A stretch of 49,405 nucleotides of DNA, from the NCBI GenBank assembly GCA_029248915.1, contig JAQWIK010000103.1:1-49405 (forward strand), in the 5' to 3' direction. The position numbers and the translations under genes are program-made. The notes under the pieces are model-generated. The model saw only the letters and a list, made by a program, of their open reading frames with translations. It was not told the origin of the DNA and ran no database searches. Each line of letters starts with the position of its first letter. The stretch's first letter is position 1. Shown piece after piece: positions 2,019 through 28,566 of this stretch. The stretch is from Paracoccaceae bacterium (lineage in GTDB: Bacteria > Pseudomonadota > Alphaproteobacteria > Rhodobacterales > Rhodobacteraceae).

Positions 2019-3716
2019 TCAAATACCAACAACTTCCACATTGCTATTAGGTTCAACGGAGATAGTTTCCTGCCTTCGAATATAATTTTCAACCACATCC
2101 CAAATCTGAGGCCCTTCAGTATCTTCATTCACTGATGCCCAACCAGAAACAATATACGTTTTTGACGGGTCAATTATTTCACCAGTCTTTAAAAGTGTCA
2201 TTTCCGTTATGCGACTACCTTGAGGCTTATTTATGTCAATTTTATAACCCATACCACCGATCCTGACCATATCACCACCCTGTTGATAGTAGGGATCAGA
2301 ATTAAACAAATTATCCGCTACATCTTCAAGAATAATCTGAATAAACTCACCTGTAAATTCTGTTCTATAAGCTTTACCGTACGTCATTGAGGTAACGTTC
2401 CATATATCTTCACGGGTGATATCTTGACCTGGAATAATTGAAGGGCCCCACCTTACACCTGGAGACATCGAAATATCAGCATCACGCTCTTCGATGAGAG
2501 CCTCACATATCAAATCATCCCAAGTTCCATTAAAATTTCCTCTTCGATATAGCAGGCTTTCTGATTTCCCAATTACCTCACTTAATTCATTTGTATAAGG
2601 AGCACGTTGCTCATCTATCAATTTTGCCACCGTTGCATCGGGCGAGATAACATCAGAAAAAATTGGAATTAATTTGTGCTTATAGCCCATCATACGTCCA
2701 TTTTGGACGTCTAAATCTACACGGCTAACAAATTTTCCGTTTGAGCCAGAGGCAATAATAATAGTTTTATCAATTAGAACAGGTTCTGGCAGAGCATCAT
2801 GAGTATGCCCAGATAAAATCACATCAATTCCTGAAACACGGCCAGCCATTTTCTTGTCCACATCAAATCCATTATGAGACAGCACAACAACTACTTCTGC
2901 ACCTAAGGAGCGAACTTCATCGACCATATTCTGCATGTTGGAGTCGCGTATACCAAAACTATACTCTGGAAACATCCAGCCTGGATTTGCAATAGGCATA
3001 TATGGAAATGCTTGACCAATAACTGCTATTTTTGATCCACCTCGTTCAAACATTTTATAAGGTGGAAAAAGCTCAGCAGGTTCATCCCATTCAGCATCAA
3101 AAATATTCTGCCCTAAAGCAGCAAAAGGGAGGTTTTCAATGATCTCTGAAATTCGATCAGAGCCCAGCGTGAATTCCCAATGGAAAGTCATTGCATCTGG
3201 CTTCAAAGCATTCATAACATTTACCATGTCCTGACCTTCAGTATGGTAACATGTATATGAGCCATGCCATGTATCCCCGCCATCAAGTAAAAGCGCATCA
3301 GGCCTATCTGCTCGAATTGAATTTATAACCGTAGCGACGCGATCTAACCCACCAACGCGACCATAGCCATTAGCCATCGATATAAAATCATCATAAGTTA
3401 GCGCATAATGAGCAGGAGACCCATCAGCAATACCATAAAGTTTTCGGAAATCCGATCCCGTGATGTGAGGAACTTTTCCAAAAGCATTTCCTACCCCTAG
3501 ATTCACTTCAGGTTCACGAAAATAAATTGGCTTTAATTGCCCATGTATATCTGTGACATGAATAAGCGATATATTTCCAAACGTTTCAAATTCTAGAAGT
3601 TGGCTTTGGTCTAGCTTTTGTTGGGCAGCCAATTTAGCCCAGTTCCCAAAGCCAGACGCACCATAAAGCGAAGATGCGGCCATAGATACTTGTAAAAAAT
3701 CACGACGTGATAACAT
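2019..3716 (-). CDS. soxB: SoxB, thiosulfohydrolase
   Basis: SoxB hydrolyses the terminal sulfonate from SoxY-bound thiosulfate as sulfate, in the periplasm, using two manganese ions. The 565-residue product begins with a twin-arginine signal (LSRRDFLQVS). It shows the metallophosphoesterase/5'-nucleotidase motifs in order: HVTDIHGQ (residues 53-60, metal ligands Asp56 and His58), LLDGGDTWHGS, VLSHNGFD and SGHTHDALPEP. The C-terminal half is the 5'-nucleotidase C-terminal domain. Full length for the family. It is preceded by a 91-base gap containing two terminator-like hairpins, so soxBCD may be expressed differently from soxXYZA. Confidence 0.97.
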   Translation of the reverse strand: MLSRRDFLQVSMAASSLYGASGFGNWAKLAAQQKLDQSQLLEFETFGNISLIHVTDIHGQLKPIYFREPEVNLGVGNAFGKVPHITGSDFRKLYGIADGSPAHYALTYDDFISMANGYGRVGGLDRVATVINSIRADRPDALLLDGGDTWHGSYTCYHTEGQDMVNVMNALKPDAMTFHWEFTLGSDRISEIIENLPFAALGQNIFDAEWDEPAELFPPYKMFERGGSKIAVIGQAFPYMPIANPGWMFPEYSFGIRDSNMQNMVDEVRSLGAEVVVVLSHNGFDVDKKMAGRVSGIDVILSGHTHDALPEPVLIDKTIIIASGSNGKFVSRVDLDVQNGRMMGYKHKLIPIFSDVISPDATVAKLIDEQRAPYTNELSEVIGKSESLLYRRGNFNGTWDDLICEALIEERDADISMSPGVRWGPSIIPGQDITREDIWNVTSMTYGKAYRTEFTGEFIQIILEDVADNLFNSDPYYQQGGDMVRIGGMGYKIDINKPQGSRITEMTLLKTGEIIDPSKTYIVSGWASVNEDTEGPQIWDVVENYIRRQETISVEPNSNVEVVGI

Positions 3717-3731
3717 TTTAATCTTTTCCGT

Positions 3732-3758
3732 AAAAAAACATATGCAATTTTTTGCATA
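3732..3758 (-). terminator. Terminator-like hairpin with T7 tract, 15 bases before soxB
   Basis: Read on the minus strand, a 7-base perfect stem (TATGCAA / TTGCATA, window positions 3752-3758 and 3741-3747) with a four-base loop is followed after two bases by seven Ts (3738-3732). The stem is AT-rich, so it would be a weak terminator or a pausing or processing site. It is the second of two consecutive hairpins in the soxA-soxB gap. Confidence 0.5.
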
Positions 3759-3769
3759 AGTTAATTAAG

Positions 3770-3797
3770 AAAAATCCCCGCATCTTTTGACGCGAGG
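3770..3797 (-). terminator. Intrinsic terminator-like hairpin just after soxA
   Basis: On the minus strand the arm at 3797-3791 (CCTCGCG) pairs with 3782-3776 (TGCGGGG): five Watson-Crick pairs and two G-T wobbles, an eight-base loop, then A and five Ts (3774-3770). It starts 11 bases beyond the soxA stop codon. GC-rich stem plus T tract is the form of a rho-independent terminator, but it lies inside the sox operon, so partial readthrough (attenuation) or 3'-end protection of the soxXYZA message is the likely role. Confidence 0.6.
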
Positions 3798-3807
3798 ACC
3801 ACGAAAA

Positions 3808-4647
3808 TTAGTTTCGAACTGAAGGGGTTTCGACCGACAATCCATTCGCACGAGACGCAACATAAAGCTCCAGTGCTTTAAATTCTTCACTACCCTCTTT
3901 AAAAGGTGTTGCTCTTATATTTTTCATACAGCCTTTGAAACGTCCGTGAATAGTATTTAATTTGGCATTTTTTAAACGATAAGTCGGAAAGCCATTTATT
4001 TGTCCCTGTGACAAATGATCGGCGCGGATCATGTTTCCATAATTATCTTCATGGCAACTTGAGCAAGCCATGTCTAACTGACCTACCCTCTGATAATATA
4101 ACGCCTTCCCTTTTTCCCAAAAAGAAGCCGCTGGTCCGTCTATGGCAACGTTTAAAGGCATTCCGCGCGACTGGAGACCAATTAGGCCTAGCATTGCAGA
4201 CATCTGCCCACCCGACCATTTCCATTTTTCGGCACCCATTCGCTCAGTTCTACAATTATTTATTAACTCTGGAATAGTTTCAAGTTCACCAGCTGAATTT
4301 ACTCTAGGCATACTCGCACGCAAACCCGAAAAACCTTCAGCGGACTCATGGCATGAGGAGCAAGCCTTACCTGCAGAACCATCCACCATCTCAAATTGAT
4401 CTAATGCCTGATCTATAAAAACGAATGATGGATTATCAAAATCGTCCATTTGAAGGGCTTGCGTCTCATCTCTTCTATAAGTCCATCCAGAAAATATTTC
4501 ATCTACATTTTCAAGATGTGCCGGAGCTGCAGTTTTCGTTAAGAAGACTTCCCCCTCAATCGACAATGTCGAGTCTTCACCTGCAGTCACAACACTAGCA
4601 AGAGCCGTAATACATAATGCTAGTGGTAAAAGCGATGTGATCTTCAT
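3808..4647 (-). CDS. soxA: SoxA, diheme cytochrome c subunit of SoxAX
   Basis: SoxA with SoxX joins thiosulfate oxidatively to the cysteine of SoxY in the periplasm. I choose the ATG at 4647 because GGAGG lies 9 bases upstream and a clean signal peptide follows (about residues 1-22); the frame stays open upstream to 4692. The 279-residue product has two CxxCH motifs (CSSCH at 96-100 and 195-199), so it is the diheme type. Cys240 in the FKGCMKN segment matches the conserved cysteine that ligates the active-site heme and is found as a persulfide in characterised SoxA. Cys132 is a candidate ligand for the other heme. Do not confuse it with sarcosine oxidase soxA at 15762-18695. Confidence 0.95.
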   Translation of the reverse strand: MKITSLLPLALCITALASVVTAGEDSTLSIEGEVFLTKTAAPAHLENVDEIFSGWTYRRDETQALQMDDFDNPSFVFIDQALDQFEMVDGSAGKACSSCHESAEGFSGLRASMPRVNSAGELETIPELINNCRTERMGAEKWKWSGGQMSAMLGLIGLQSRGMPLNVAIDGPAASFWEKGKALYYQRVGQLDMACSSCHEDNYGNMIRADHLSQGQINGFPTYRLKNAKLNTIHGRFKGCMKNIRATPFKEGSEEFKALELYVASRANGLSVETPSVRN

Positions 4648-5953: not shown

Positions 5954-6050
5954 AGTTCCTCCAATAGGAATCTTGATATCCTTAGTATACCGTAGGCTAC
6001 ACAAATTATAAAAATCAAGAAAAATTCATAAAAACGAGTATTTTAATTCA

Positions 6051-7429: not shown

Positions 7430-7447
7430 AACGAATCCTTGCAAACC

Positions 7448-7466
7448 CACATATTCAATTTATGTG
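7448..7466. promoter_or_regulatory. Inverted repeat between soxV and soxS, candidate SoxR operator
   Basis: A perfect 6-7-6 inverted repeat (CACATA, seven bases, TATGTG) lies at the centre of the 69-base gap between the divergent starts of soxV (7429) and soxS (7499). In Paracoccus, SoxR is known to bind in this intergenic region. The match to a defined SoxR consensus cannot be tested here, so the operator role is inferred from place and symmetry only. Confidence 0.45.
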
Positions 7467-7498
7467 ATATAACCACAAACTCGTCAATCGGAGTTAAA

Positions 7499-7927: not shown

Positions 7928-8263
7928 ATGTCACTGCCAGTCATTACTAAAGAGACAACTCAAACCGAATTAGACGCAATAGTTCAGAAAGCAAAGTCAG
8001 CATCCTGCTTTTTAAAGGCTATAAGCCATGAAGGCCGCCTTATGATCCTTTGTCATCTTGTATCTGGAGAAAAATCTGTGACTGAACTTGAAGACTTAAT
8101 TTTAGCTCGGCAGGCTGCGGTATCTCAACAATTATCAAGACTAAGACTAGAAGGGCTAGTTATTCCGAGGCGAGACGGTAAAACGATATACTATCGCCTG
8201 GTCGATGACAAACCTAAACAAGTTTTAGAGATAGTTTACGATTTATTTTGCCGCGACAATTAG
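7928..8263 (+). CDS. soxR: SoxR, ArsR-family sulfur-responsive repressor
   Basis: This is the winged-helix repressor of sox genes. The 111-residue product has the ArsR fold: SHEGRLMILCHL (helix 2), the recognition helix AAVSQQLSRLRLEGLV and the wing RRDGKTIYYRL. It has cysteines at 27, 42 and 108. Cys42 and Cys108 are 66 residues apart and occupy the same places as the two cysteines (41 and 107, from memory) by which Rhodobacter SqrR senses reactive sulfane sulfur, so a persulfide/polysulfide-responsive switch is expected. AGGTGAG precedes the ATG. It is not the redox-stress SoxR of enterobacteria. Confidence 0.9.
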   Translation: MSLPVITKETTQTELDAIVQKAKSASCFLKAISHEGRLMILCHLVSGEKSVTELEDLILARQAAVSQQLSRLRLEGLVIPRRDGKTIYYRLVDDKPKQVLEIVYDLFCRDN

Positions 8264-26976: not shown

Positions 26977-27656
26977 ATTTCACGGCCTCTACTGACGCTC
27001 GTTCTATAAATGAAAAATACTCCCATCCCAAGCCAAATAAACGCTAACGAAAACCACGTGATTGCATACTGTTTGTGGTTGTTAGGAATATTCTCTGTAT
27101 CTATAGGAAGTGGATCAAGATGGATAATTGAGGGAGTGAAGCTTTTCGCAACCACTAGGATAGGTTCTGTACCCAGTTTTTTTGATAATGCATTTACATC
27201 ACGGGCGAACCAAATATTATTTTTTTGATCGGGATCTGGTGTAAAAAAATCAACTTCGTTGGGCCAATGTAAATTCCCAATTATGTTCAGACTACCATTT
27301 AAACTTATATTTGATGCCAATTCATGGCGTATAAAACCTAAATCTAATAAGATAATATTTCCATTTTCCAGTTCCAATGAAGAAATTATTCGGTAACCAG
27401 CCCCAATAAATTTTTGGCTAGCCAAAACTTTAATATAGTTTCCTGTTAATTTTCCGAAAATCTGTACCGGCATATATTTGTGATCTGATTCTAGAACTTC
27501 GGAGGGCAAACGCTGGGGTAATCCAGAAATTTTACTGTCAATATCCACTAAAACGGACTGCTTCCAAAGAAGCCTTTCTAACTGCCATTGCCCTAAGGAC
27601 AGCAAAATAGCGGTCCCAACAAAAATAAATAACCAAGTAAAAAATTTATGAGGCAT
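26973..27656 (-). CDS. surf1: Surf1, cytochrome c oxidase assembly factor
   Basis: Surf1 helps insert heme a into subunit I of aa3-type cytochrome c oxidase. The 227-residue product has two transmembrane segments, one at the start (about residues 6-25) and one near the end (about 197-216), with a periplasmic domain between them; LSLGQWQLERLLWK and NHKQYAITWFSLA are family hallmarks. A hairpin with a T tract ends 16 bases before its start codon, and there is no good ribosome binding site, so its expression is not obvious from the sequence. Confidence 0.92.
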   Translation of the reverse strand: MPHKFFTWLFIFVGTAILLSLGQWQLERLLWKQSVLVDIDSKISGLPQRLPSEVLESDHKYMPVQIFGKLTGNYIKVLASQKFIGAGYRIISSLELENGNIILLDLGFIRHELASNISLNGSLNIIGNLHWPNEVDFFTPDPDQKNNIWFARDVNALSKKLGTEPILVVAKSFTPSIIHLDPLPIDTENIPNNHKQYAITWFSLAFIWLGMGVFFIYRTSVSRGREI

Positions 27657-27664
27657 AAATTTAA

Positions 27665-27700
27665 ATCCAAAAAAAAGTGCGCAAAATTATGCGCACTTTT
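27665..27700 (-). terminator. Strong intrinsic terminator-like hairpin between ctaE and surf1
   Basis: An 11-base perfect stem (AAAAGTGCGCA with TGCGCACTTTT, positions 27673-27683 and 27690-27700) has a six-base loop. On the minus strand the second arm and the following Ts form an eight-T run down to about 27669. It lies 47 bases after the ctaE stop and just ahead of surf1, so it should end the cta message. A TATAAT on the minus strand at 27704-27709 precedes it directly and could start a new transcript within the hairpin. Confidence 0.7.
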
Positions 27701-27747: not shown

Positions 27748-28566
27748 TTAGTGAATTGTTGCGCCAATGCTGCCCCAAACATAAATCGCTGCAAACAAAA
27801 ATAACCATACTACATCCACGAAATGCCAATACCATGCCGCAGCCTCAAAACCCAAATGCTGATCTTTAGTAAAGTGACCACGCATTGCCCGTAACATACA
27901 AATCGCCAGAAATATTGTTCCAACAAGCACATGAAATCCGTGAAAACCCGTGGCCATAAAAAAGTTTGCTCCGTAAATATTGCCCGAAAAACCGAATGCT
28001 GCATGTTGATATTCATATGCCTGGAAGATCGTAAATAACACACCTAAACTTACTGCAACGACAAGACCCTGCACCATAGATTTTCGATCTTCATCATGAG
28101 CAATTGCATGGTGAGCCCAGGTAGCAGCAGCTCCAGAACACAACAAAATCAGGGTGTTTATCAATGGCAAATGCCAAGGGTCAAAAACTTCTATGCCAGC
28201 CGGGGGGAACTGGCCATCTTGCAATGGGCTCATATCACCCATTGGATACATAGCGTGCTTGAAAAAGCTCCAAAACCAAGCCAAGAAAAACATAACTTCC
28301 GACATAATGAAAAGAATAAAACCATATCGCAGTCCAATTAATACAACCGGAGTGTGATCGCCAACTTGATTTTCTTTTACAGTATCTGACCACCAGACAT
28401 ACATCACAAACAATACAGCAACAAAGCCTGCAATAAACATCCATGGATTTTCACTATGAAAGAATATTACCGCTCCAAAAAGCATCACAAAAGCTGCTAT
28501 TGAACCAATAAAAGGCCATATAGACGGATTTAAAATATGATAGTCGTGGTCTTTTTCATGCGCCAT
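27748..28566 (-). CDS. ctaE: Cytochrome c oxidase subunit III
   Basis: Subunit III of the aa3-type terminal oxidase in the inner membrane. I choose the ATG at 28566 (GAGGGG upstream, product starting [15 protein letters not shown] as in related proteins) over 28581. The 272-residue product has seven hydrophobic segments and family motifs such as [31 protein letters not shown] and [11 protein letters not shown]. It overlaps the end of ctaG by 11 bases. Subunit I (ctaD) is not in the window, as is common where it is encoded apart. Confidence 0.96.

Follow-up and report, generated by a model that had tools for sequence, protein, structure and literature searches.

The Sox system is one of the main routes by which thiosulfate is oxidized in the ocean, and its gene cluster is usually drawn as a single operon. 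How does this picture fit a cluster in which two terminator-like hairpins follow one another between soxA and soxB, as a preliminary description had noticed in the DNA of a Paracoccaceae bacterium, and what would then set the expression of the genes beyond them? We have examined the locus in a window of 49,405 nucleotides, the whole stretch of DNA that was analysed, and in related genomes.

The sox cluster and the soxA-soxB gap

The minus strand carries the sox genes in the order soxV, soxW, soxX, soxY, soxZ, soxA, soxB, soxC and soxD, with soxS and a gene for a SoxR/BigR-like protein diverging from them. The gap between soxA (end at 3808) and soxB (start at 3716) occupies positions 3717-3807, 91 nt in all, and folds as a whole with z = -5.6. 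The features of the region are:

3808-4647, minus strand: soxA (TIGR04484, 218.6 bits), last gene of the proposed upstream unit
3773-3800, minus strand: hairpin 1, a GC-rich stem of 12 pairs with a 4-nt loop (-18.1 kcal/mol, z = -4.8)
3770-3774, minus strand: T5 tract of hairpin 1, read from the sequence, with T conserved after the stem in relatives
3741-3758, minus strand: hairpin 2 (-7.9 kcal/mol, z = -3.4), in which TATGCAA pairs with TTGCATA over 7 bp without mismatch around an A4 loop
3732-3738, minus strand: T7 tract after hairpin 2, absent from the four nearest relatives in an alignment
3723-3729, minus strand: GGAAAAG, the probable soxB ribosome-binding site from its sequence, with the ATG 6 nt further on
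2019-3716, minus strand: soxB (TIGR04486, 829.8 bits), first gene of the proposed downstream unit

Coordinates and folding bear out that both hairpins of the 91-nt gap are on the minus strand, that is, in the transcribed direction. The accompanying statement, that other sox gaps lack such structures, holds for the W-X, X-Y, Y-Z, Z-A and B-C gaps of the window, in which we found no comparable hairpins. For the comparison, gaps were drawn from the genus itself (16 genomes, 13 of them with soxA) and from 80 loci in related bacteria, almost all of them Rhodobacterales; 91 soxA-soxB gaps were compared, 88 of them distinct, with a median length across relatives of 94 nt, and all counts of gaps take related genomes as independent.

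A very probable terminator after soxA

Hairpin 1 shares with intrinsic (Rho-independent) terminators a GC-rich stem, a short loop and a T tract, but differs from the usual ones in that it sits within a conserved operon and at a near-fixed distance from an operator-like motif. None of 200 shuffles was as stable, and in the 49-kb window, which alone supplies this background rate, only three sites have a hairpin of -12 kcal/mol or below followed by a T tract, hairpin 1 being the strongest. Conservation in relatives, the check that the preliminary description had itself put forward, is found for hairpin 1: a stem with its T tract is present in 81 of the 88 distinct soxA-soxB gaps under a permissive test that allows imperfect stems. 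A strict test, requiring a perfect stem, detects terminator hairpins in 68 of the 91 gaps and in 1.1% of shuffled gaps, and elsewhere in the cluster in none of the X-Y, one of the Y-Z and five of the Z-A gaps. The five closest gaps are too shallow in variation for covariation to be assessed (202 of 500 shuffles reach the observed number of two-sided changes), and the wider comparison was therefore used. When 65 stems are compared, most positions of hairpin 1 show five or six kinds of pair, which indicates that pairing, not particular letters, has been kept; these stems were selected for pairing, so that the informative part is the count of pair types.

A stable stem right behind a highly expressed gene can, as a matter of general knowledge, stabilise RNA or direct its processing, and hairpin 1 might in this way guard the 3' end of soxXYZA within a longer transcript. 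We regard this as highly unlikely, as the T tract, which processing does not need, is conserved like the stem, with T at 80-98% in three successive columns immediately 3' of it in the relatives. Hairpin 1 and its T5 tract very probably form, as judged from these patterns, a conserved intrinsic terminator by which soxXYZA is uncoupled from soxBCD. Between genes, the window has just one further strong site of terminator type, a strong hairpin at 27673-27700 that has this character on both strands and lies between reading frames that end at 27656 and start at 27748.

Hairpin 2 and the palindrome before soxB

The second stem is present in the window as described, a perfect 7 bp stem 11 nt past the T5 tract and followed by T7. 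A standard terminator scan does not report it, the number of its G-C pairs being too small. In a tandem arrangement, both hairpins would stop transcription coming from soxA and soxBCD would be expressed by readthrough only, at a lower level than soxXYZA. The perfect stem and T7 tract of the window genome are what such an arrangement would call for, and T7 could add termination in one species, but the stem is weak and AT-rich, and the four nearest relatives (L002, L003, L004 and L013) keep the palindrome and not the T7 tract. Moreover, the element has a median stability of -1.7 kcal/mol in relatives, most of which do not fold at this place, T is not enriched after it, and its conserved letters agree with a DNA operator. 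Thus, the tandem proposal stands for hairpin 1, which is conserved, and falls for hairpin 2, where relatives have a DNA palindrome in place of a terminator; a double terminator acting in this way appears very unlikely.

Other roles for hairpin 2 were also considered. A dispersed palindromic repeat is rejected, since ATGCAAN4TTGCAT occurs at just two places in 2.02 Mb. An attenuator or antitermination element is likewise rejected: the window has no Rfam match, the soxA-soxB gap directly follows soxA and holds no leader reading frame, and, with two symmetry centres tried, neither raised RNA-stem covariation convincingly above shuffles (best single pair, 42 of 500).

The relatives carry ATTCAAATATGCGAATATGT and similar sequences at the place of hairpin 2, and the palindrome within its stem resembles a known type of operator. 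The relevant features are:

3742-3757, minus strand: operator-like palindrome ATGC-N8-GCAT, which forms the stem of hairpin 2, a symmetric variant of the SoxR/SqrR-type ATTC-N8-GAAT
6024-6039, minus strand: companion operator-like site before soxX, ACTC-N8-GAAT, homologous to the ATTC-N8-GAAT of relatives
5989-6018, minus strand: promoter-like TTGATT-N18-TACGGT of soxX, from column conservation in 63 relatives
7928-8263, plus strand: soxR-like gene for an ArsR/BigR-type repressor with two conserved cysteines

ATTC-N8-GAAT is the recognition site of the sulfide-responsive repressor SqrR, as cited in PMC9774250. The half-sites and 8-nt spacing of the Rhodobacter capsulatus SqrR operator (and of the related YgaV site of E. 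coli) recur exactly in 27 of the 88 distinct soxA-soxB gaps, while 11 letter permutations of the palindrome are found in 0-1 gaps each. The looser ATKC-N8-GMAT, whose K and M letters were picked after inspection of these same data, is present in 65 of the 88 distinct gaps (68 of 91 overall), essentially with a spacer of 8 only (other spacers, 0-3 gaps). Differences from the SqrR operator are that the target here lies inside the sox cluster and that the right half of the soxB site is more often GCAT (57%), with ATTC-N8-GCAT a common variant in relatives. The soxA-soxB gap of the window lacks the exact site, its ATGC-N8-GCAT agreeing with it at six of eight letters; these half-sites are shared with four close relatives, except that L004 has ATGT/GCAT and has lost one half.

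The same motif occurs before soxX. In the soxW-soxX gaps, ATTC-N8-GAAT is found exactly in 60 of 80 and ATKC-N8-GMAT in 64 of 80, and the latter is absent from the X-Y, Y-Z and Z-A gaps of the relatives compared. The soxX promoter region of relatives is strongly conserved as ATTCA-N7-GAATTTGTTGTTGCG, with TACGGT 18 nt past TTGCGT (compare window positions 5989-6039). Exact ATTC-N8-GAAT is also found before soxC in five lineages without an operator between soxA and soxB (L040, L042, L045, L054 and L080; Fisher p = 0.005). This placement, in the soxB-soxC gap, gives the impression that the internal SoxR site has been displaced by one gene in the downstream direction; both sites are present in L030 and L035. 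In the divergent soxS-soxV gap (window positions 7430-7498), a conserved promoter-like TTGACG is accompanied by GAATATGTG, possibly a third SoxR site.

Two further forms of the soxB element may be recorded. In L046, L052 and L057, where the gap is 66 nt, an operator-like ATTCAGGAAT..GMAT abuts the soxB ATG, merging operator, ribosome-binding AGGA and start codon. In L018, L019, L022, L027, L030 and L034 the element is CACACATGCGAATGTGTG or CACACATGCGCATGTGTG, which contain another palindrome, shifted by 4 nt, able to fold as a 7-bp stem.

The SoxR-like regulator

The SqrR family takes in SoxR and BigR (PMC10451225), and SqrR and the SoxR-like protein encoded here fall into one subfamily of the ArsR family, that of sulfur-sensing repressors that carry two cysteines. 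The protein scores 92.7 bits against the BigR model NF040642, below its cut-off of 155, and 77 bits against NF033788, above the cut-off of 55. Its cysteines, in LCHL and LFC, are conserved in 9 of 9 aligned sequences.

The soxB palindrome might alternatively be the operator of a regulator other than SoxR. Unlike the soxX site, it favours GCAT as its right half and shows additional conservation, of ATGT after the site and of ATATGCG within it, and the ATTC form was lost in the clade of the window with the SoxR recognition helix unchanged. A shift in SoxR specificity matching the ATGC half-sites of this clade is rejected, the recognition helix being identical in the relatives of the window and in the sister clade. 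Nevertheless, the 27 gaps with the exact palindrome have a form identical to that of the soxX site and of the published SqrR site (PMC9774250), and no alternative candidate regulator was identified; another regulator at this site is, in our estimation, rather improbable. The best reading of hairpin 2 is as an operator-type site, probably for SoxR, whose perfect symmetry happens to permit a hairpin, and the T7 tract after it is probably incidental.

Arrangement of the probable terminator and operator, and a candidate soxB promoter

The operator and the terminator occur together. All 65 operator-bearing gaps also have a terminator, whereas 16 have a terminator alone and seven have neither (88 gaps; Fisher p = 4e-5). 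In 48 of the 65, the operator starts 16-19 nt past the last G-C pair of the hairpin 1 stem, and several of the shorter distances are, by inspection, folds that run past the T tract; the distance from the operator to the soxB ATG varies from 16 to 85.

These observations bear on a further possibility, namely that hairpin 1 is a partial attenuator with no promoter behind it, merely lowering soxBCD relative to soxXYZA within a single transcript. The conserved gene order does have a strong terminator inside, and the carrier and cytochrome proteins may be required in excess. Such an attenuator, however, leaves unexplained both the operator motif 16-19 nt past the stem, kept in three quarters of the genomes, and the occurrence of that motif before soxX together with its absence from the other gaps, and we consider it quite improbable. 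Instead, soxBCD probably has its own promoter, for which the sequence offers these candidates:

3759-3764, minus strand: putative soxB -35 element, TTAACT, at offset -7 from the operator
3737-3742, minus strand: putative soxB -10 element, TATGTT, after a 16-nt spacer, overlapping the operator

At offset -7 from the operator, relatives have 2.69 TTGACA-like letters against 1.54 expected, and at offset +15 they have 3.21 matches to TATAAT against 1.61 expected, part of which is the operator itself. The -10 sequence itself is a weak one, and the enrichment counts as weak evidence of a promoter. The suggestion that soxBCD is set by readthrough or antitermination found no support; neither is needed, since the conserved operator, together with the promoter-like sequence, directly before soxB would provide soxBCD with a regulated start of its own.

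Discussion

Given the gene order, the conservation, spacing and co-occurrence of the two structures and the same motif before soxX, we consider it likely that the sox cluster is made up of two units under SoxR control, soxXYZA and soxBCD, with a terminator insulating one from the other and a separate, repressed promoter for soxB; SoxR binding, the promoter with its start site, and termination itself are predicted from the DNA. Hairpin 1 and its T tract would end the soxXYZA transcript through intrinsic termination, and a palindrome acting as an operator of SoxR/SqrR/BigR type would lie over the soxB promoter, about 17 nt past the stem, making soxBCD a second transcription unit. When oxidizable sulfur is absent, SoxR would occupy this site and the matching soxX site; sulfane sulfur bridging its two cysteines would cause it to leave both, and the two units would then be induced together, at strengths set by their separate promoters. 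In the clade of the window, the operator-like site has become ATGC-N8-GCAT in both halves, a perfect palindrome and, on paper, an RNA hairpin.

Related systems offer points of comparison. The SoxR of Hyphomicrobium is inactivated by sulfane sulfur (PMC10451225, PMC12423496), and in Hyphomicrobium denitrificans the region bound by SoxR is soxA-soxY (PMC10451225), likewise an operator inside the sox cluster. In Paracoccus and Pseudaminobacter salicylatoxidans, too, sox promoters are repressed by SoxR through cluster-internal operators, with several transcription units, as proposed here; the soxA-soxB gap of Paracoccus in our set (L083) has neither the operator nor a T tract. In a Roseobacter strain, thiosulfate induces every sox gene, and soxC by a factor of more than 14 (PMC10090131), so that the likely terminator does not keep soxC from being induced, by whatever route. 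Terminators and SoxR/SqrR operators are each of an already known kind. In the literature searched, with most subscription papers outside its scope, we found no description of a SoxR site between soxA and soxB, nor of a terminator and a SoxR/SqrR operator at a near-fixed distance inside a sox cluster.

The terminator and operator might also act as a composite switch, in which bound SoxR blocks a polymerase paused on the T tract, or a released polymerase is re-used at the soxB promoter. The near-constant start of the operator, 16-19 nt after the stem, is the reason for thinking that SoxR would block the front of the polymerase during the T-tract pause, but we hold this idea only tentatively and think it unlikely. 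Were SoxR to act on termination, termination would be tight with SoxR bound and leakier once sulfane sulfur removes it, and the near-fixed spacing thereby raises the wider question of repressors acting on termination. The arrangement of terminator and operator-like site appears to be kept in most of the Rhodobacterales examined; if the split is indeed conserved, the carrier and cytochrome part of the pathway (SoxXYZA) would be dosed separately from its hydrolase and dehydrogenase part (SoxBCD).
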